Below are positions 17,042 through 31,441 of a stretch of 33,250 nucleotides of DNA, piece after piece. The notes under the pieces were generated by a model that saw only the letters and a list, made by a program, of their open reading frames with translations, did no database searches and was not told the origin of the DNA. Where the stretch lies: the NCBI GenBank assembly GCA_005223075.1, contig NJBO01000020.1, positions 1 to 33,250 of the forward strand. Reading direction: 5' to 3'. This DNA is from a candidate division TA06 bacterium B3_TA06. GTDB taxonomy: Bacteria; Hydrothermota; Tepidihabitantia; B3-TA06. The position numbers and the translations under genes were made by a program. Every line of letters begins with the position of its first letter. Position 1 is the stretch's first letter.

Positions 17042-18762
17042 TTCCCCAGGAAGTAATCGAACGAGTCCGTGCCGAAACCGACATCGTTGGGCTTATCGGT
17101 TCCTATATTAAGCTCAAGCGTTCAGGCAAAAGCTTTGTCGGGCTTTGTCCTTTTCATCAGGAAAAGACAGCGTCCTTTAACGTGAGCCCTGATCGCCAGG
17201 CTTACTACTGCTTCGGATGCGGTGCAGGCGGGAACGTCATCACCTTTCTTATGAACTACGAGAACCTCTCTTTCCCTGAGGCGGTTAAGCAGTTGGGTGA
17301 ACGCTTGGGGATTAGGATCCAATATACCGCGGAAGACGATCCAACAAAACCCCTCCTCGACGCACTGGAGCTTGCGCACAAGATCTACAAGGACGCCCTT
17401 TGGTCTAGCGAAGGCCTAGGGGCCCAGCGCTACCTTGTTTCTCGTGGTCTTAAAAAGGAGACGGTGAGATCCTTTGAACTTGGTCTTGTGCCACGGGATA
17501 CATCGCTTCTTCTTTCGACAGCCAGAGAGGCCAAGCTCTCCACCCAGATTTTAAGGGATGCTGGGGTCCTGGGCAGCACCTCAGGCAGGCTTTATCCCTT
17601 CCTTGCCGGACGGATCGTTTTTCCCATTCGGTGGCCCTCAGGCAAGCTTGTAGGCTTTTCAGGTCGCGTGTGGGGGGATGATCCCAATCCTGCCAAGTAC
17701 GTCAATACCTCTGAAACCAGGCTATTCAAGAAGAGCAGGCTTCTTTACGGACTTAACAAGGCACGGCCTTATCTCAGGCGAGAGGGAGCTTTGCTTGTGG
17801 AAGGGCAGACGGATGTCCTCAGACTTGCGCAGGAAGGATTCCACAATGTGGTAGCGCCCCTTGGGACAGCCTTTACAGGCGGGCAGGCCAAGGTTCTTTC
17901 CCGGTACACGGATAGTGTTACCCTTGTCTTTGACGGGGACGAGGCCGGACGCAAGGCGGCACAGCGGGCGTTGGGCGAGGTGCTTGCAGCCGATCTTGAC
18001 GTGAAGCTTCTCCTGCTTCCCGAAGGTGAGGATCCTGACTCGTTCCTTGCCTCCCACTCCTCGGATGAGTTCAACTCTTTGCTCGAACAAGCTCAGGAAC
18101 CCATGCCGTTCCTCTATAACCTGCTTTCTCCGTCCACTACCAGGGTTCGTAAGAAGGCCGCGGAGATTATGCTATCCCTTATCAATCGTGTATCCGATTC
18201 CCTGCGCCGTGAGCTGTACCTTGACGAAGCGGCAAACCTTCTTAGAATTGATAGGAGGGTTATCGAAAGAGTGCTTGCCGATCTGGCCAAATCTTCCAGG
18301 TCGGGTGGTACTGTTTCTGAAGCGGATGGTGCGGGTGTTACGGGTACGGGTGATCCTGAGGAAAGGCTGTTGAGGATGATGATTCAGAAAGCCGAGTTTG
18401 TTCGTCTGGCTGCCGAGAATCTTCCGTTATCTTTGTTCCCCGAGGGGGAGAGGCGGGAGTTTTTAGAAAAGCTCTATGGTGTGGCCGCTCGCAAAGGGCA
18501 GTTTAGCACCGGCGAGATACTGGATTTGCTCTCGCCCGAGATGCAGCGTAGGGTCTCAGGGTGGAGCTTTTCAGATGTTAACTACTCACGCGAGGAGTTC
18601 GCACGCGCGTTAGCGCACTACCTTTACAGGCGCAGACGGGATGCCCTGCGTCATGAACTTACGCAAGCCGAACGTTCAGGGGATGCTGAGCGCGCACGCA
18701 GCATCCTTGTTCAGTTGAATGAGTTAGATAAGGAAAGCAACAAAATCTATCAGGAGATATGA
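17038..18762 (+). CDS. dnaG: DNA primase DnaG
   Basis: 574 aa. It makes RNA primers for chromosome replication. The zinc-binding domain has C37, H40, C58 and C61 (CPFH...CFGC). The TOPRIM catalytic core shows [17 protein letters not shown] and the metal-binding LVFDGDEAG. The C-terminal part, which normally binds DnaB, is helical and less conserved. A GTGTTACGGG repeat at 18335 encodes part of a Gly/Thr-rich linker ([10 protein letters not shown]) between core and C-terminal domain. It is joined to mutS2 and rpoD by ATGA overlaps on both sides. Confidence 0.96.
18335..18344 (+). repeat. GTGTTACGGG repeat inside dnaG
   Basis: The 10-mer, followed by TACGGG, is in frame in dnaG and encodes part of the GAGVTGTG linker. 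It is one of at least three coding copies in the window. Confidence 0.55.
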
Positions 18763-20408
18763 ATAAGAAAGCAAACGTTCAAGCAGCCGCGATAACCCTA
18801 CGCGGCAGAGAGGTTGCGGATAAGATCCTTACTCAGGTTAAGGATCGTCGGACTATAACCTATAAGGAACTTGAGAGCTATCTGCCCGAAACCTACGTCT
18901 CCTCTGAGGAGGTAGACGAGATAATAGTGAGGCTTAGAGAGCAGGGGGTAAAGCTTGTGGCAGAGGGTGAGGTTATCCATGAGGGACCAAAGGAGAAGAC
19001 CTACAAGCTTCCTCGTGCCAAGGGGCGCAAGGATTCTACCCGTTCATACTTCAAGGAACTCAACAAGTTCGGGCTTCTTACCAAGCAAGATGAGGTCCGC
19101 TACTCCAGCCGGATGGAAGAGGGTTACATCCAGCTGCAGCATGAGATATTGGGAACATGGGGGATGCTTGCTCAGCTTCTTGAGCAATGCCAGGAGGTGG
19201 AGGATGGGGAGGCGCACGTGGACCAGATCGCCAAACCTGACATCGACTCGGTCATCGACAAGAGGCTATACCAGCGCTGGAAACAGGGTTTTATTCGTAA
19301 CTCTCACAAGCTCGCCGAGTTAAATGAGCAGCTGCGTGAGGCGACCCGGCGACGCAATCGTACCAAGGAGGAGGAGAGGGCTTTAGAAAAGCTGCGCGAT
19401 AAGATCCATAGAAAAGTAATGAATCTTTCCCTGCAACCCGATATTGTCAAGGAATACACCGAGCGATACAAACTGGAGATCTCCGAACTTATCAAGATGG
19501 ATAGCCGGGTTGAGGGACTCAAGGCGAAGGCTGCCAGGAGCGCATCCGCGTCAGCCAGACTCGAGTTCCACGAAGCTCGCACGGATCTGCGTCGCGCCGA
19601 GCGCAACTTCGGGCGGACCGTAAAGGAGGCAAGAGAAAGCCTTGCTCGCTTGAGGCAGATAGAGGCAAGCATACTGCGCGCACGCGACCGGATGATAGAA
19701 GGCAACGTCCGTCTCGTGATCTCCATCGCCAAGCGCTACACCAACCGGGGGCTGGAGTTCATCGACCTCATCGCCGAAGGCAACTGCGGACTTATCAAGG
19801 CGGTTGAGAAGTTTGACTACAAGAAGGGCTATAAGTTCTCTACCTACGCAACATGGTGGATCAAGCAGGCCATTACCCGTGCGATTGCCGATCAATCCAG
19901 AACGGTAAGGGTGCCGGCGCATATCATAGATGCTATAAACAAGATAACCCGCGTATCACGGCGCTTTATTCAGAAACACGGCCGCATGCCAGCTCCGCAT
20001 GAGGTCTCGCACTATCTCCCAACCTTTACCGAGGACAAGGTCAAGTTCCTCACCAACATAGCGCAGTATCACGTCTCGCTGGACAAGGCAATAGACGACG
20101 ATGCATCATCGTTCGTGGGCGACTTCATCTCCGATGACAAAACCCCTGTTCCCACTTATCATGCGGCGCGATCGGTTCTTGACACCCGTATTGACGACGC
20201 CTTGGCCACGCTTTCAAAGCGTGAGGAGACCGTGCTGCGGCTGCGCTTCGGTGTTGACGACGGGGTTCAGCGCACACTTGAGGAGGTTGGTCAGATCTTC
20301 AACGTGACCCGGGAGCGCATCCGTCAGATAGAGGCAAAGGCGTTAAAGAGGCTTCGCGACCCCTCGCGCCGCAAGATCTTTGACCCACTAAAGGAGCTGC
20401 TTCGTTAA
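18759..20408 (+). CDS. rpoD: Primary sigma factor RpoD (sigma-A/70)
   Basis: 549 aa. It directs RNA polymerase to housekeeping promoters. The order is normal: region 1.1 (residues of about 15-75), region 1.2 ([18 protein letters not shown]), a charged non-conserved insert, region 2 with [21 protein letters not shown] and the -10 reading helix ([10 protein letters not shown]), region 3, and region 4 with the -35 reading helix ([18 protein letters not shown]). It overlaps dnaG by ATGA and is last in the block. It is presumably the factor that reads the 16-bp-spaced promoters seen throughout this window. Confidence 0.97.
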
Positions 20409-20430: not shown

Positions 20431-20456
20431 GGCCGCCCGAGGGCGGCCTTTTTTTT
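20431..20456 (+). terminator. Strong terminator after rpoD
   Basis: GGCCGCCC and GGGCGGCC form a perfect GC-rich stem followed by eight T. It closes the grpE-rpoD block. Confidence 0.93.
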
Positions 20457-20457
20457 C

Positions 20458-20495
20458 CACCCCACGGTGCTACTGCGTATCACCGCGGGGACCCC
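20458..20495. repeat. CCCCAC...GGGGACCCC hairpin element, copy C
   Basis: It starts 2 bp after the rpoD terminator. The ends match copies A and B; the arms continue as CGGTG / TCACCG around a different loop. Confidence 0.6.
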
Positions 20496-20518: not shown

Positions 20519-20607
20519 GTGGACAAATAGTAGTCAAAAGCTGGCCAAATAATACCCAAAAAGCTATCCAAAAGGTGGACAAAAGCTGGTCAAAAGGTGG
20601 TCAAAAA
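20519..20607 (+). repeat. Degenerate 11-bp tandem array, eight units
   Basis: Units begin at 20519, 20530, 20541, 20552, 20563, 20575, 20586 and 20597. Examples are GTGGACAAATA, GTAGTCAAAAG, CTGGCCAAATA, GTGGACAAAAG and GTGGTCAAAAA, roughly STRGNCAAAAR. One extra base sits at 20574. The period is one helical turn. A short open frame over it is not convincing as a gene. Confidence 0.75.
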
Positions 20608-20610
20608 CCC

Positions 20611-20648
20611 GGGATCCCCGCGAAGCTGCGAAGCAGATTTGTGGGGTG
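20611..20648. repeat. CCCCAC...GGGGACCCC hairpin element, copy D (inverted)
   Basis: It reads GGGATCCCCGCGAAG... to GTGGGGTG, the reverse-complement orientation of copies A-C. The GCTGCGAAGCAG centre is a hairpin similar to the one directly after the nadB stop (8002-8018). Confidence 0.5.
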
Positions 20649-20666
20649 AAAAAGATGGACAAGAAC

Positions 20667-20743
20667 GCGACTTCGTCGCAATCACAGATTGCAGATTGGA
20701 AGATTGAAGATTGGAAGATTGCTCCACAAGTGTCGCCCTTCGG
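20667..20743 (+). repeat. Left direct-repeat block flanking the TIR island
   Basis: It opens with GCGACTTCGTCGC and ends CTCCACAAGTGTCGCCCTTCGG. Between these lie repeats of AGATTGGA/AGATTGA. The same opening and nearly the same end (CTCCGCAAGCGTTGTCCTTCGG) recur in the same orientation at 23259-23320. The 20744-20906 stretch holds further low-complexity fragments (for example CTCAGAATGA, CTCAGGATGACA) and no gene that I can support. Confidence 0.5.
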
Positions 20744-20906
20744 AACTCTGCAAGCATCGTCCTTAAAGGTCTTTCGTCCTTCCGGCCTCCGGGCTCCAGT
20801 CCTCAGAATGAGGGATAGGAGGAGTGTTATGAGATCCTTACGTCGTATGCCTCCTTCGGAGACAATACTCCTCAGGATGACAGAGGGGGGAGTGGCGTCC
20901 TTCCAC

Positions 20907-20944
20907 GGGGTCCCCGCGACTTCGTGAAGCGAAGGCGTGGGGTG
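20907..20944. repeat. CCCCAC...GGGGACCCC hairpin element, copy E (inverted)
   Basis: It reads GGGGTCCCCGCGACTTCG... to GCGTGGGGTG, the same orientation as copy D, ending just before the 106-aa membrane protein stop. Confidence 0.55.
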
Positions 20945-20959
20945 TTTATCTGGGGTAAA

Positions 20960-21280
20960 TTAAAGCATCAGCAGGATAACGGTTACGCAGGCGGCGGCAA
21001 GCAGGGGTGAGGCTACGGCCCAGAACACCAGCGGCGGCTTGTCCTGGCGCCGGGTGCCGTAGCGTCCGGAGGACGCATGCGTGTTACGGGTGTTACGGGT
21101 GTTATTTCCTTGCGACCGGAGCGCAAGCTCCGAGTAATAGTGAGAATGCCCCGTAGGGGTACGGGTGTTACGGGTGTCGGGCTCGCGGCTGGCCAGCTTC
21201 CTAACGGCGGCGATAAATCGCATTGCCGCAAGAATCGCAACCGCGCCCGCGATGAGTATTATAAGCACCGTTCCAAACAT
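20960..21280 (-). CDS. Small two-helix membrane protein with repeat-derived linker
   Basis: 106 aa. One hydrophobic helix lies at the N-terminus (TVLIILIAGAVAILAAM) and one at the C-terminus (PLVFWAVASPLLAAACVTVILLML). The linker is polar and contains TRNTRT and NTRNTRNTH, which are translations of the GTGTTACGGG repeat read on the opposite strand. No family is recognised. Reality is supported by a promoter (21290-21317) whose -10 box lies 9 nt before the ATG, the same geometry as grpE, and there is no Shine-Dalgarno sequence. It follows the TIR cassette on the same strand by 44 nt but has its own promoter. It could be a host gene or a third cassette member. Confidence 0.55.
   Translation of the reverse strand: MFGTVLIILIAGAVAILAAMRFIAAVRKLASREPDTRNTRTPTGHSHYYSELALRSQGNNTRNTRNTHASSGRYGTRRQDKPPLVFWAVASPLLAAACVTVILLML
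21081..21174 (+). repeat. GTGTTACGGG repeats inside the small membrane gene
   Basis: Two tandem units plus a partial third at 21081-21104, and a further unit at 21165-21174. They encode the TRNT-rich linker on the minus strand. Confidence 0.65.
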
Positions 21281-21289
21281 GTAGTCGTC

Positions 21290-21317
21290 ATTGTAACCAG
21301 ATAGGGAAGAGAGTCAA
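21290..21317 (-). promoter_or_regulatory. Promoter of the 106-aa membrane protein
   Basis: Read leftward, TTGACT (21312-21317), 16 bp, TACAAT (21290-21295). The -35 box begins 8 bp after the stop of the TIR-partner gene. Confidence 0.6.
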
Positions 21318-21324
21318 GGAAGTA

Positions 21325-22104
21325 TTATTTCTTTGGTATTTCTCCTGGGAAAGTCCCGTGTTTTGAAAACCATTGAAGGCTTGACTGACGGAGTGCGATG
21401 TAAGTTGGATGTAATTCCGGTTCTATGGTTTGTATTCCGAAAGCGCCTACTAGAGAGTCAGCAGCCATGGCAGAGATACGTGTAAAATCCATTAGACAAA
21501 TTTTGAATTTCTGTTTATCCACCATTGGACCTACTTTGAGTAGACGATTTTTTCCAACTCCTCGCCCAAGCATACTGTTGATCCCGACGTGTGTAGGATG
21601 AACGCCTAACTCACAAAGTAGGTGGTACATATAGTCGATGTTAGTTCTATGCGTAATAGGGATTCCTGTGGTTTCTTTAATCAATTTTCTTATTTCTCTA
21701 GGTTGGAATTCTTCTTTTTGTTCTCTGTTCTCAGGGTCAACATCTTTCCATCGTTGGATTGAAGGGCGGTCTAGTGCGAATTTGGTGAGGAGTAAACCAC
21801 ATTCAAAAATATCTCTTTGAACCATCAGGGAAACCTGGTAGAAACCGGAGAAAAGTAAAGACCAAGCTGTTGAATAGTCATTAAACAAACGAGCTCCTAT
21901 ACCTCGAATAAGCAATTCATCATCATCTTTGTGCAGTCGTTCGACAGCTATGAGGTTAACTATGTTGATTGAATCATGAATAAGTTGAATGTGCTCCTGC
22001 CAATCAGGATTTTCGGCAATCATTACGATGGTTTTCTTTCTAACATCCTCATGTCCTTCAAGGAGGTTGGAAAGATTTTCTGGAATGGGAGGGATAATTG
22101 TCAT
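21325..22104 (-). CDS. Helical partner protein of the TIR gene (DUF5677/HEPN-like, tentative)
   Basis: 259 aa from the ATG at 22104, which overlaps the TIR stop as ATGA; a longer in-frame start six codons earlier is less likely. The protein is almost wholly helical. Residues of about 65-110 (FNDYSTAWSLLFSGFYQVSLMVQRDIFECGLLL) and the later DYMYHLLCELGVHPTHVG resemble the repeat-unit helix and terminal histidine segment of DUF5677-type proteins, which some place near HEPN folds. This is pattern-matching by eye. No catalytic RxxxxH motif is clear. Its base composition is A+T-rich like the TIR gene and unlike the neighbours. It is probably the second half of a two-gene defence or toxin cassette; whether it is effector, sensor or inhibitor is unknown. 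Confidence 0.6.
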   Translation of the reverse strand: MTIIPPIPENLSNLLEGHEDVRKKTIVMIAENPDWQEHIQLIHDSINIVNLIAVERLHKDDDELLIRGIGARLFNDYSTAWSLLFSGFYQVSLMVQRDIFECGLLLTKFALDRPSIQRWKDVDPENREQKEEFQPREIRKLIKETTGIPITHRTNIDYMYHLLCELGVHPTHVGINSMLGRGVGKNRLLKVGPMVDKQKFKICLMDFTRISAMAADSLVGAFGIQTIEPELHPTYIALRQSSLQWFSKHGTFPGEIPKK

Positions 22105-23078
22105 CGATTGTTTTGCAACCAACGTTTTAATTCAGGGTTAACTTCATAAATGTAAATCTGTCCTCCTCCAACATATTCTGCTTTTATGTATTTTTCCCAC
22201 TTTAAATGGGTAATAACATGGTCGATTATTACCTCTGGAACGTTTAAATGAGATGCTATTGAGAAGTTGTCTCCGCCATTTTTATTGACGATTGAAGCGA
22301 CAGTTGATTTGAATATCGATTCGTAATCTTCTCGATATGCTTTGAGGTATGCGTCCATTCCCCATTCAGTTACATGAAAACAGAATCCTTTAGCTCCTTC
22401 ACTATTGGAGCCAAGAAATTTCTTTAAATCGATAAGATTCCTTCTGTCAAGAATCTCTAGTGATTCCATCATTGCGTTGAAGTCTATTTCGAACGGCTGG
22501 ACTGCTTCGAAGATTTCTTCTCCTTCAATGAGGTGAGCGTAACCTTGTTCAATAAGTCTTTCGCAAGACAACTTAAGTACTAAGTTGTCTAGTTTAGTTA
22601 AATCAGGTATTAGCTCAATTCTGGTTTGGGCATATTTAGGGGGTTCACCTAGTGGGGGCTTCTCCCGGTGTTCGTAAATTGAGTTGATTATTTCATTGAG
22701 TTCATCTTCGTAATCGTTAAGATCCTTAACCCTAACCCAGCGATATGGCTTTAAGCTCTCCGGAACTTCCTCGTCTTGTATGTCAAGGATTAACGGGATA
22801 AGTCTAATATTTTCATTTATCTTTTTAATAACACTGACATCTCGTTCAGCTTTAGGCCAAGGTTTCTCAATACTGTATTGAGAAAGGACTACAATCACGG
22901 CCTGAGTCTTCTTTATCCCCTCTTCGAATATCTTGTCGACAAGATTGTCACCTGCAAGTATTTCCCGTTTATCTAACCAGACGTCTATACCTTGAGCACG
23001 TAACCTCTTGTCTAAGTCTAAAACAAATCTGGTCTTATCTTCGCTAGCGTGACTGATAAAGACTTTCGGAGTCTCCAT
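22101..23078 (-). CDS. TIR-domain protein with winged-helix-like C-terminal region
   Basis: 325 aa. Residues 1-130 are a bacterial TIR domain: KVFISHASED at the start, DVWLDKREILAGDNL, VIVVLSQYS near 61-69, then W74 and E79 in EKPWPKAERD. The glutamate sits where catalytic TIR NADases have theirs. Residues of about 150-325 contain two stretches (FEIDFNAMMESLEILDRRNLIDL and FSIASHLNVPEVIIDHVITHLKWEKYIKA) that look like winged-helix units. TIR proteins in phage defence cleave NAD or make signal nucleotides. Here no Thoeris ThsA is adjacent. The ATG lies 6 nt after the -10 box, so the mRNA is leaderless. The A+T-rich composition suggests horizontal transfer. Confidence 0.85.
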   Translation of the reverse strand: METPKVFISHASEDKTRFVLDLDKRLRAQGIDVWLDKREILAGDNLVDKIFEEGIKKTQAVIVVLSQYSIEKPWPKAERDVSVIKKINENIRLIPLILDIQDEEVPESLKPYRWVRVKDLNDYEDELNEIINSIYEHREKPPLGEPPKYAQTRIELIPDLTKLDNLVLKLSCERLIEQGYAHLIEGEEIFEAVQPFEIDFNAMMESLEILDRRNLIDLKKFLGSNSEGAKGFCFHVTEWGMDAYLKAYREDYESIFKSTVASIVNKNGGDNFSIASHLNVPEVIIDHVITHLKWEKYIKAEYVGGGQIYIYEVNPELKRWLQNNR

Positions 23079-23112: not shown

Positions 23113-23258
23113 CCCTCTAACCCCGCCATATCACCTTATAGCGAACAGCTCACGGCTGACAGCTGACGGCAAGAGCGCGCTGACGCACGCATTGCAAAGA
23201 TCAAATTTCAAATATCAAAATGAAACGGGGCAGACAGCTCACGGCAGACAGCAGGGAG
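23113..23258. other. Non-coding mosaic of short repeats
   Basis: No gene is seen. The stretch holds repeated CAGCTCACGG/CTGACAGCTGACGGC fragments (23147-23170 and 23232-23248) and an AAATTTCAAATATCAAAATG run. Similar low-complexity pieces occupy the other side of the TIR cassette. Confidence 0.5.
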
Positions 23259-23320
23259 GCGACTTCGTCGCCAATGCAAAAGTCAAACTGCAAATTGGCT
23301 CCGCAAGCGTTGTCCTTCGG
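23259..23320 (+). repeat. Right direct-repeat block flanking the TIR island
   Basis: It starts GCGACTTCGTCGC and ends CTCCGCAAGCGTTGTCCTTCGG, with CAAACTGCAAATTGG between. It parallels the block at 20667-20743 in order and orientation. Confidence 0.5.
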
Positions 23321-23386
23321 TGCCACGCCTCTTCGAGGCTCGCAATGACGTCTTTAATCTACACCCTTGTTATCCTACTCACCCGG

Positions 23387-23414
23387 TTGACAGGCGGGGT
23401 TAAGCACCTATAAT
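23387..23414 (+). promoter_or_regulatory. Consensus promoter of the 23439-27023 gene group
   Basis: TTGACA (23387-23392), 16 bp, TATAAT (23409-23414). The start near 23421 leaves a leader of about 18 nt containing AAGGAGG. Confidence 0.85.
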
Positions 23415-23438
23415 CAGGGATAATTCAAGGAGGAACAG

Positions 23439-24560
23439 TTGGCGCACGCGTACACGCCGGGTCTTAAGGTAACGGCCAAGACAAAGATAGCAAAGGAGCG
23501 CAGGCTTCCACTGAAGGGTGAGGTTGTGGTCGCCAAGGGCCAGAAGGTCACGGGCGATACGGTGGTTGCCCGCACAGCACTTCCCGGTAACGTAGCCACG
23601 CTCAACGTGGGTCAACTTCTTGGCGTTCTGGCTTCGGACATCCCGGAACTTATGATTAAAAAACCTGGGGAGCCAATCAAGAAGGGTGAGATGATCGCTC
23701 AGACCAAGGGGCTTTTCGGTATCTTCAAGTCTAAGGTCGCCTCGCCTATCACAGGCGAGATTGAGAGTATCTCCCCGATAACCGGGCAGGTAATTATGCG
23801 CGAGCCGCCTCAGCCGGTTGAGGTAGACGCCTACATGGACGGCGAGGTTGTTGAGGTTTTCGCAAATGAAGGTGTGATCGTTGAGACCACGGGCAGCCTG
23901 ATCCAGGGCATCTTCGGATTCGGCGGGGAACGCCGCGGTAAGATAAAGCTCCTCGCCTCCAGCCCTGATGAGGTGCTTGACGCGTTCGGGCTTACCCCTG
24001 ATATGAAGGGCTGCGTGGTAGTAGGCGGTTCGCTCGTGACCGCCGAGGCGATTCAGCGCGGAGAAGAGCTTGGCATCTGCGGGTTAGTGGTCGGCGGAAT
24101 CGAGGACTCCTCGATCAAGAAGGTTCTGGGTTACGACATAGGCGTGGCCATCACGGGTTCTGAACCGATTTCTCTTTCAGTTATAGTAACCGAGGGTTTT
24201 GGAAAGATGCCTATGGCTCCGCGAACATTTGAGCTTCTTTCCGAGCTTGACGGGCAGCGTGCTTCGATAAACGGTGCCACTCAGATCCGTGCGGGCGTGA
24301 TACGTCCTGAGATCATAGTGCCGCGCGAAGTCACATGGAAAGAGCGAAGCAAGGGTTCGCTTGAGGAAGGACTCAAGGTCGGGATGCAGGTAAGGATTAT
24401 CCGTGAGCCGCATTTCGGCGCCATAGGCACGGTGGTCGGCCTGCCGGTCGATCTTGAGGAGATAGAGACCGAATCAAAGGTCAGAATCCTGGAGGTGGAG
24501 CTTGCAGGAAAAGAACGTATACGTTTGCCGCGCGCCAATGTCGAGATTATCGAAGCTTAG
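23439..24560 (+). CDS. Conserved-looking protein with barrel-sandwich-like N-terminus and C-terminal KOW-like motif; function unknown
   Basis: 373 aa from a TTG, 5 nt after AAGGAGG (23427-23433). The first 150 residues are beta-rich. They carry Gly/Pro/Lys turns such as RRLPLKGEVVVAKGQKV and KSKVASPITGEIESISPITGQV, as in lipoyl/biotinyl-like or RnfC-type sandwich folds, but no lipoyl-lysine motif. Residues of about 180-265 (KGCVVVGGSLVTAEAIQRGEELGICGLVVGGI) suggest an alpha/beta unit. The end (GMQVRIIREPHFGAIGTVVGLP) fits a KOW-type motif. No signal peptide is seen, so it is probably cytoplasmic. It overlaps the PorV-like gene. I do not recognise a named family. Confidence 0.75.
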   Translation: MAHAYTPGLKVTAKTKIAKERRLPLKGEVVVAKGQKVTGDTVVARTALPGNVATLNVGQLLGVLASDIPELMIKKPGEPIKKGEMIAQTKGLFGIFKSKVASPITGEIESISPITGQVIMREPPQPVEVDAYMDGEVVEVFANEGVIVETTGSLIQGIFGFGGERRGKIKLLASSPDEVLDAFGLTPDMKGCVVVGGSLVTAEAIQRGEELGICGLVVGGIEDSSIKKVLGYDIGVAITGSEPISLSVIVTEGFGKMPMAPRTFELLSELDGQRASINGATQIRAGVIRPEIIVPREVTWKERSKGSLEEGLKVGMQVRIIREPHFGAIGTVVGLPVDLEEIETESKVRILEVELAGKERIRLPRANVEIIEA

Positions 24561-30730: not shown

Positions 30731-31441
30731 CTACTTCCCGGACTTTGTGTTACGGGTTGTGTTACGGGAATCGGAGGCTACCTTGCCGTCCTTTAGGAGT
30801 ATCAGGCGGTGGGCAAAATCCATGACCATCTTGTCGTGGGTGGAGAAGACGAAGGTGGTGTTCTTTTTCTTGTTTAATTCTTTCATGAGTTCCAGGGTCT
30901 CCATGCCGGTGGTGGAGTCCAGGTTGGCGGTAGGTTCGTCTGCCAGAACCAGTTTGGGTTCCTTGATCAAGGCCCTGGCAATGGCAACGCGCTGCTGTTG
31001 TCCACCCGACATGGCAAGAGGACGGCGATAGATGTAATCCTTGAGGCCCACATCGATCAGTAGCTGTTCTACCGTCTCCTTGCGCTTGCGTTTACTCCAT
31101 TTGAGAAGGATCAACGGTATCTCCACGTTTTCGAACGCAGTAAGCACCGGGATCAGATTGAACGACTGGAACACGAACCCTATGGAGTTCTTACGCAGTT
31201 CGGCACGTGCCTTGTTGCTCAAATCGGCCAGGTCGGTGCCGTTAAGCGAGACCGTGCCAGAGGTAGGCACGTCCAGACAGCCGATGATGTTTAATAGTGT
31301 GGTTTTGCCTGAACCTGAAGGACCGGCGATGGAAAGGAACTCTCCCTCGGCTATCTCCAGGTCAACGCCACGCAGCGCCTTGGTTATGACCTTGCCGGTC
31401 TTGTAGTCCTTGGTCAGGTCTTGGATGGTTAAGAGGGCCAT
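30731..31441 (-). CDS. ABC transporter ATPase, MacB/LolD type
   Basis: 236 aa. It powers the two following permeases. Walker A is GPSGSGKT at residues 40-47, the Q-loop is FVFQSFNLIP near 89, the signature SGGQQQ starts at about 145, and Walker B is LVLADE at 164-169, followed by PTANLDSTTG as in LolD/MacB. The switch histidine is in FSTHD. The C-terminus extends past the usual end as SRNTTRNTKSGK, encoded by two copies of the GTGTTACGGG repeat on the opposite strand. AAAGGAG lies 5 nt before the ATG. It lies 18 nt after the TetR gene. Confidence 0.95.
   Translation of the reverse strand: MALLTIQDLTKDYKTGKVITKALRGVDLEIAEGEFLSIAGPSGSGKTTLLNIIGCLDVPTSGTVSLNGTDLADLSNKARAELRKNSIGFVFQSFNLIPVLTAFENVEIPLILLKWSKRKRKETVEQLLIDVGLKDYIYRRPLAMSGGQQQRVAIARALIKEPKLVLADEPTANLDSTTGMETLELMKELNKKKNTTFVFSTHDKMVMDFAHRLILLKDGKVASDSRNTTRNTKSGK
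30747..30768 (+). repeat. GTGTTACGGG repeats at the ATPase C-terminus
   Basis: Two units, at 30747-30756 and 30759-30768, encode the RNTTRNT tail of the ATPase on the minus strand. Confidence 0.65.

Follow-up and report, generated by a model that had tools for sequence, protein, structure and literature searches.

The gene for the sigma factor RpoD is followed here by a short stretch in which an 11-bp motif is repeated several times, and this raises the question of what such an array does beside a core gene. Within the window, that is, the whole stretch of 33,250 nucleotides that was analysed (contig C20 of the genome G000, which comprises 2.41 Mb in 42 contigs), the array can be read directly as eight units running from 20519/20520 to 20606/20607, in the order TGGACAAATAG TAGTCAAAAGC TGGCCAAATAA TACCCAAAAAGC TATCCAAAAGG TGGACAAAAGC TGGTCAAAAGG TGGTCAAAA. 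This reading confirmed the original prediction of a degenerate eight-unit array with an 11-bp period and a single one-base slip, the slip being one unit of 12 bp. Tandem Repeats Finder reported period 11 for positions 20535-20606, together with two period-22 arrays. No ORF of at least 80 aa covers the array, which agrees with the non-coding position that had been claimed for it and rules out a translated repeat at this site. Its placement between inverted hairpin elements was likewise correct, with an imperfect hairpin before it and another hairpin after it, as was its placement next to a TIR island (Table 1).

Table 1. Features of the rpoD slot in the window (strand as given; a dot marks features listed without strand).
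Feature	Position	Strand	Basis
rpoD, conserved core gene 5' of the array	18759..20408	+	Orthologues in 8/9 genomes, 49-100% identity
Intrinsic terminator of rpoD (GGCCGCCCGAGGGCGGCC + T run)	20431..20456	+	Read directly; kept in G001, G002, G004
Imperfect hairpin element before the array (CCCCACGGTG..CACCGCGGGG)	20460..20490	.	Read directly
11-bp phased array, 8 units, one of 12 bp	20519..20607	+	Direct reading and repeat search
Hairpin element CCCCGCG..TGTGGGG immediately 3' of the array	20616..20646	+	Fold; dispersed family
Lone extra unit TGGACAAGAA after the hairpin	20656..20665	+	Read directly
Hairpin GCGACTTCGTCGC, common after arrays	20667..20679	.	Fold
AGATTG-type tract, filler repeat of the slot	20686..20722	+	Repeat search
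Small gene module (106-aa ORF 20960-21280)	20949..21319	-	91% identity to module 3' of a different G001 array (L129)
265-aa cargo protein, no family match	21325..22122	-	ORF and family searches
TIR-domain cargo protein, defence type	22101..23078	-	TIR_2, PF13676, E 1.8e-25; PADLOC PDC-S66, bSEFIR
Homology to G001 resumes	23383..24560	+	At promoter-like TTGACA of next conserved gene (23439-24560)

The gene content of this slot differs between genomes. It holds the TIR protein in G000, an AAA_15 ATPase in G004 and a protein without family match in G001, while still other genes occupy it in G002 and G006; G005 has no insert, and the conserved gene that closes the slot in the window follows rpoD directly there. 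Among the rpoD orthologues counted in Table 1, that of G003 is cut by a contig end, and the rpoD search in G007 found only a second sigma factor. The arrangement of a lone extra unit after the hairpin recurs at other loci. The TIR slot ends on the right (23145-23290) with the filler tracts CAGCTCACGGCTGAC, GCGACTTCGTCGC and TGCAAAAGTCAAA, and tracts of the same kinds follow other arrays.

Searching the genome of the window for similar sequences, we obtained 31 exact matches to the two-unit pattern TGGNCAAAAGSTGGNCAAAA and none to the reversed control pattern, and a looser array pattern occurred at 139 places as compared with 8 for its control. Overall, about 40 arrays are dispersed over this 2.4-Mb genome (Stahlbacteria/WOR-3). 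We fetched 37 further G000 stretches besides the window, and the resulting 38 loci contain 39 arrays, none of them within a predicted gene; outside the window and in other genera, one of 16 arrays (L169) lies inside a predicted gene. The strict unit was present in 6 of 147 genomes of the phylum, and the generalised 11-bp unit CAAAAG-N5 in all eight family genomes examined, which represent three genera, and in none of the 139 others of the phylum, with no matches to the control. When species genomes were scanned, 46 stretches were returned, 45 of them in MAGs named Candidatus Stahlbacteria or WOR-3 and one on a Clostridiales contig. The latter (L058, 200-330) is one short array with this consensus, standing by itself in the MAG RUI217 from outside the phylum. 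No match came from viral contigs, phages or plasmids, and a phage or plasmid origin was rejected on this ground. The search in the genome and in relatives that the original prediction had proposed thus revealed wide occurrence and regular phase, and neither absence from all relatives nor loss of phase in other copies, which it had named as counting against it, was found. The arrays are at least a new interspersed repeat family, and the literature on tandem or intergenic repeats of Stahlbacteria/WOR-3 that our search covered, largely outside subscription journals and preprints, held no description of it.

What do these arrays have in common? Across the 107 arrays compared, the usual size is 4-6 units, and within the unit the CAAAAG core and TGG are conserved, one position (N) is free and another (W) holds either A or T; units with TACC or TCCC are also present, and the third genus shows more diversity at the five variable letters. 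Many arrays are preceded by a leader, CGTCAGGTTTGAGTGCAACTCGTCAC, and 22 of 27 leader hits are separated from the array by 8 bp. The same overall anatomy was found in the other two genera, where related leaders were judged by eye. A GCGAC-type hairpin follows within 120 bp in 27 of 72 arrays and a GGGGWCCCC hairpin in 14 of 72; copies of the latter cluster near arrays, with 17 of 45 lying within 150 bp of one in the fetched G000 loci. The A-tracts of the arrays are phased at 11-11.3 bp, and the bend predicted for 54-bp arrays from wedge parameters averaged 73 degrees as compared with 23 degrees for shuffled sequences and 20 degrees for neighbouring windows, none of 305 windows reaching the array mean. 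For the 88-bp array of the window the result was weaker (67.6 as compared with 34.3 for shuffled sequences, a value reached by 27 of 500 shuffles). One-turn phasing with curvature, as originally predicted, was therefore borne out by the A-tract spacing and the predicted bend, and an iteron-like architecture is supported. The arrays differ from replication-origin iterons, however, in being present in about 40 copies and in lacking any relation to skew: positive GC skew was found on the array strand at 19 of 39 arrays in G000 and 19 of 33 in G001. A replication origin at this site, which a GC-skew check had been proposed to reveal, is not supported by these numbers, and an orientation by replication was rejected.

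In plasmid parC sites, too, direct repeats with a length near 11 bp are grouped about five at a time along one face of the DNA. The arrays resemble them in all three respects and could in principle be a chromosomal centromere-like partition site bound by a ribbon-helix-helix protein. Their roughly 40 copies spread over the genome, the missing relation to the replication strand and the close association with swapped genes described below argue against this explanation, and we consider it highly improbable.

Array orientation does carry information about the neighbouring genes. We compared G000 with G001, whose rpoD genes are 98% identical, and matched 26 array pairs, of which 15 were kept for their ample flanks on both sides; those left out were cut by contig ends or, in the case of L036/L126, had a G001 flank outside the fetched DNA. 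For most G000-only loci, matching was confined to the fetched G001 loci, and at 5 of 30 G001 loci (L111, L123, L126, L132 and L136) no G000 array was matched. For the 15 pairs, the aligned fraction in 500 bp was 0.99 on the 5' side as compared with 0.31 on the 3' side. Thirteen pairs were better conserved on the 5' side, none showed the reverse, and the remaining two, L041 and L026, were ties and are sites without any exchange. The genes gave the same picture: an orthologue of the first 5'-side gene was present at the site in 14 of 14 cases and of the first 3'-side gene in 3 of 15, while the second 3'-side gene was again accompanied by its orthologue in 11 of 14. For the second 5'-side gene the figure was only 8 of 15, in part because the required flank on that side was just 2 kb. 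G+C content is about 0.53-0.56 before the array and about 0.45-0.47 after it, and the nearest gene is closer on the 5' side in 31 of the 36 G000 arrays for which a gene was called on either side; in other genera this holds for 9 of 11 arrays. Polarity is independent of gene strand. Relative to the 5'-side gene, arrays have the same orientation at 15 G000 loci and the opposite one at 23, and since orientation to genes is mixed we ruled out a 3' UTR or transcript element. The main result beyond the earlier claims is that the arrays are polar borders between conserved and swapped genes. At one locus (L019, 5068-8161) a conserved 950-aa gene is flanked on either side by arrays that point away from it.

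Gaps of 250 bp or more that hold no array were conserved just as poorly (0.31 aligned, 39 gaps, all from these same loci, which had been fetched for holding arrays). Position could thus underlie part of the polarity, and any long gap next to a core gene would be expected to show some of this contrast. It is the fixed orientation that sets the arrays apart from other long gaps. This bears on the explanation that they are a passive dispersed repeat, a minisatellite or interspersed mosaic repeat that has no part in exchange and gathers where the intergenic DNA next to core genes is unconstrained. The variability of array-free gaps would be expected from it, as would slots full of other dispersed repeats and hairpins. 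A passive repeat accounts poorly, on the other hand, for a polarity of 13 to 0, for the single leader and its recurring 8-bp spacing, and for the 26 matched pairs in which the array has kept its site. Together with the unit pattern, these points make this explanation quite unlikely.

We analysed the unit pattern in 38 pairs of orthologous arrays whose upstream DNA could be aligned (mean identity 89.7%). The arrays turn over fast: unit number was equal in only 11 of the 38 pairs, and in those 11 (50 unit pairs) N agreed in 58% and W in 68%, as compared with 90-100% at the other positions; between non-orthologous arrays N agreed in 34% and W in 49%. Compensating gain and loss of units may inflate the apparent change at N and W. 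Neighbouring units were identical in 50 of 445 cases as compared with 42 expected, a likeness at chance level for which simple slippage gives no explanation; replication slippage as the source of units is unsupported. Both the kept unit core beside two variable positions and the chance-level likeness of neighbours count against a passive repeat. Strings of two and three units common to different loci were at chance level. Four-unit strings were in excess (12 as compared with 3.9 expected), as were five-unit strings (4 as compared with 0.1); most of these strings were contributed by loci that are linked or by individual ones (L061/L083, L079/L084). Since sharing beyond chance is confined to these few linked cases, frequent array-to-array copying is not visible, and copying of multi-unit tracts between loci was rejected. 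Neither slippage nor frequent tract copying explains the unit pattern.

Which genes lie on the two sides? The first 5'-side genes (37 proteins) are of housekeeping types, for example sigma factors, SmpB, ribonucleotide reductase, urocanase and PEPCK, and matched 16 PADLOC families with one member each. The first 3'-side genes (70 proteins) include those for TPR proteins, KAP ATPase/QatA/PifA, pAgo, a type IIG RM protein, a type II methyltransferase, TIR proteins and AAA ATPases, and matched 225 PADLOC families; this set was drawn from G000, G001 and four other genomes and so has a different denominator from the 5'-side set. Non-defence cargo is also present, namely subtilase, FlgD-type and acetate-kinase-like proteins. 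Some cargo recurs in different slots: besides the 371-bp module of the window and its counterpart behind another G001 array, an 829-bp module is 95% identical between the G006 rpoD slot and a different G007 slot. Neither cross-slot module begins at the array itself; in both cases several hundred bp lie between. At other loci the array itself is included, with L024 and L036, both in G000, being identical from within the array on for several hundred bp, and with L017/L111 and L077/L079 having leader, array and downstream DNA in common and different upstream DNA. The right ends of the slots share no common motif, as judged by eye at the junctions of 13 loci. An internally repetitive cargo gene lies behind several arrays in different species (L042, L087, L113 and L131).

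These observations bear on the view that the arrays are boundaries or insulators, at which a nucleoid-type protein on the bent array would part core-gene transcription from the foreign genes on the 3' side, or silence them, with selection keeping the borders and no recombination involved. The strong predicted bend fits this view, as does the placement of the core gene on the 5' side opposite low-G+C accessory genes; tolerance of A or T at one unit position might also point to minor-groove reading. A boundary would not readily explain, though, why usually one slot edge alone carries an array, why array-containing segments are common to non-orthologous loci and why arrays turn over so fast. We regard a pure boundary as unlikely.

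We tentatively favour, at just short of an even chance, the reading that the arrays are a family-specific dispersed element that serves as the protein-bound, one-sided anchor of single-gene exchange slots beside core genes. In its favour are the restriction to one family, the intergenic placement, the uniform polarity with gene replacement and a G+C step on the 3' side, the varied content of the rpoD slot, the contrast between cargo and housekeeping neighbours, the segments common to different slots, the predicted bend and the like anatomy of all three genera. Against it count the lack of a dedicated enzyme in the searches described below, right ends without a common motif, cross-slot modules that begin away from the array, the poor conservation of array-free gaps, the two sites without exchange and the absence of visible array-to-array copying on a frequent scale. 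The slots are best read as exchange slots for one to a few genes, and the element as a leader followed by 4-6 CAAAAG-N5 direct repeats, often with hairpins behind. We infer a recombination step in which a protein would bind one unit per helical turn along one face of the bent DNA, and the bound complex would anchor one end of a recombination that imports or replaces the neighbouring gene, the other end being loosely defined. Catalysis might be provided by a dedicated nuclease or recombinase, for example of the rolling-circle (HUH) type, or, equally, by ordinary homologous recombination via the common arrays and filler repeats. A more specific version, in which the roughly 40 bent arrays per chromosome are integron-like one-sided docking sites where a putative array-binding nuclease or recombinase, perhaps rolling-circle, replaces single accessory or defence genes and rewrites the array, is possible though doubtful.

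Profile searches of the genomes for integrase, RVT_1, Y1 and Y2 found no dedicated enzyme for the arrays. The integron integrase model TIGR02249 was over cut-off in none of 11 genomes, and weak matches to it were those of general tyrosine recombinases; control genomes also had none over cut-off, so the sensitivity of this search, on which the integron integrase was ruled out, rests on the curated cut-off. A reverse transcriptase (RVT_1) was found in one of 11 genomes (G002:C193:523-1146) and was absent from G000, and a reverse-transcriptase origin was rejected accordingly. The search for IS91-type Y2 transposases (Y2_Tnp) gave no match, and neither did its control. Y1 transposases were absent from G004, where arrays are present, and the Y1 genes checked did not have the hairpin on both flanks, GGGGTCCCC being found in a single copy in L101 and L102 and not at all in L103 and L104; RAYT was rejected on these grounds. 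Of the four Y1 genes in G000, however, two have arrays less than 2.5 kb away (L039 on C16 and L018 on C3).

Among the systems compared, the nearest printed architecture is the bind locus of RepB, the HUH initiator of the pMV158-type dso, which has three 11-bp direct repeats with the proteins on one face and a hairpin nic site 84 bp away (PMC9943647, PMC3387028); a relative has four such repeats 52 bp from nic (PMC3387028). The arrays share with it the tandem 11-bp direct repeats one turn apart near a hairpin (PMC9943647), and this likeness makes an HUH-type one-ended process an attractive idea. They differ from it in forming about 40 chromosomal copies of 4-6 units, in the inconstant type of the neighbouring hairpin and in that no Rep gene was found beside them by searches that covered families other than the pMV158-type Rep. 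The STAR elements of staphylococci are also dispersed intergenic direct repeats of variable copy number, stable position and unknown function, but their motif is GC-rich and 14 bp long, and its copies are set apart by spacers of 40 bp or more that are conserved within lineages (PMC3532100), whereas the arrays have an 11-bp A-tract unit without spacers, are curved and polar to exchange, and change fast at two unit positions; the STAR motif was not found in them. REP/BIME elements with RAYT comprise hairpins and mosaic composites scattered through intergenic DNA (PMC2817692), while the core feature of the arrays is direct repeats, the Y1 genes checked do not have the hairpin on both flanks, and G004 has arrays but no Y1 hit. 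Integron attI/attC sites resemble the arrays as fixed sites beside which single-gene cassettes are exchanged; here, in contrast, no integrase was over cut-off, there are many sites per genome and no cassette-end site was recognised. As regards CRISPR arrays, the variable stretch of the unit here is just 5 nt. E. coli has about 40 hotspots at which defence genes replace one another between conserved core genes; they are attributed to mobile elements, and the account compared here mentions no repeat array common to their edges (PMC10121019). As far as these sources can be compared, nothing like the polarity of the arrays toward gene exchange is described for STAR, REP/BIME, integrons or the E. 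coli hotspots. Defence genes beside particular core genes are mostly explained by known mobile elements with integrases, whereas here a sequence mark without known enzyme predicts the side and the gene of the swap across three genera. Should the mark direct exchange, it would represent a new route of gene acquisition and offer a simple sequence handle by which defence and other accessory genes of uncultured bacteria can be located; should it be a boundary element, it would be a signal for the border between core and foreign genes of a kind rare in bacteria.

The window contains further repeats. A second copy of the GGGGTCCCCGCG..CGTGGGGT hairpin lies at 20906-20944, 296 bp after the first, and a GTGTTACGG-type 9-bp repeat recurs at 1739-1757, 21081-21177 and 30745-30768; one occurrence closes an ABC-transporter-like ORF (...RNTTRNTK...), and another falls inside the 106-aa ORF.
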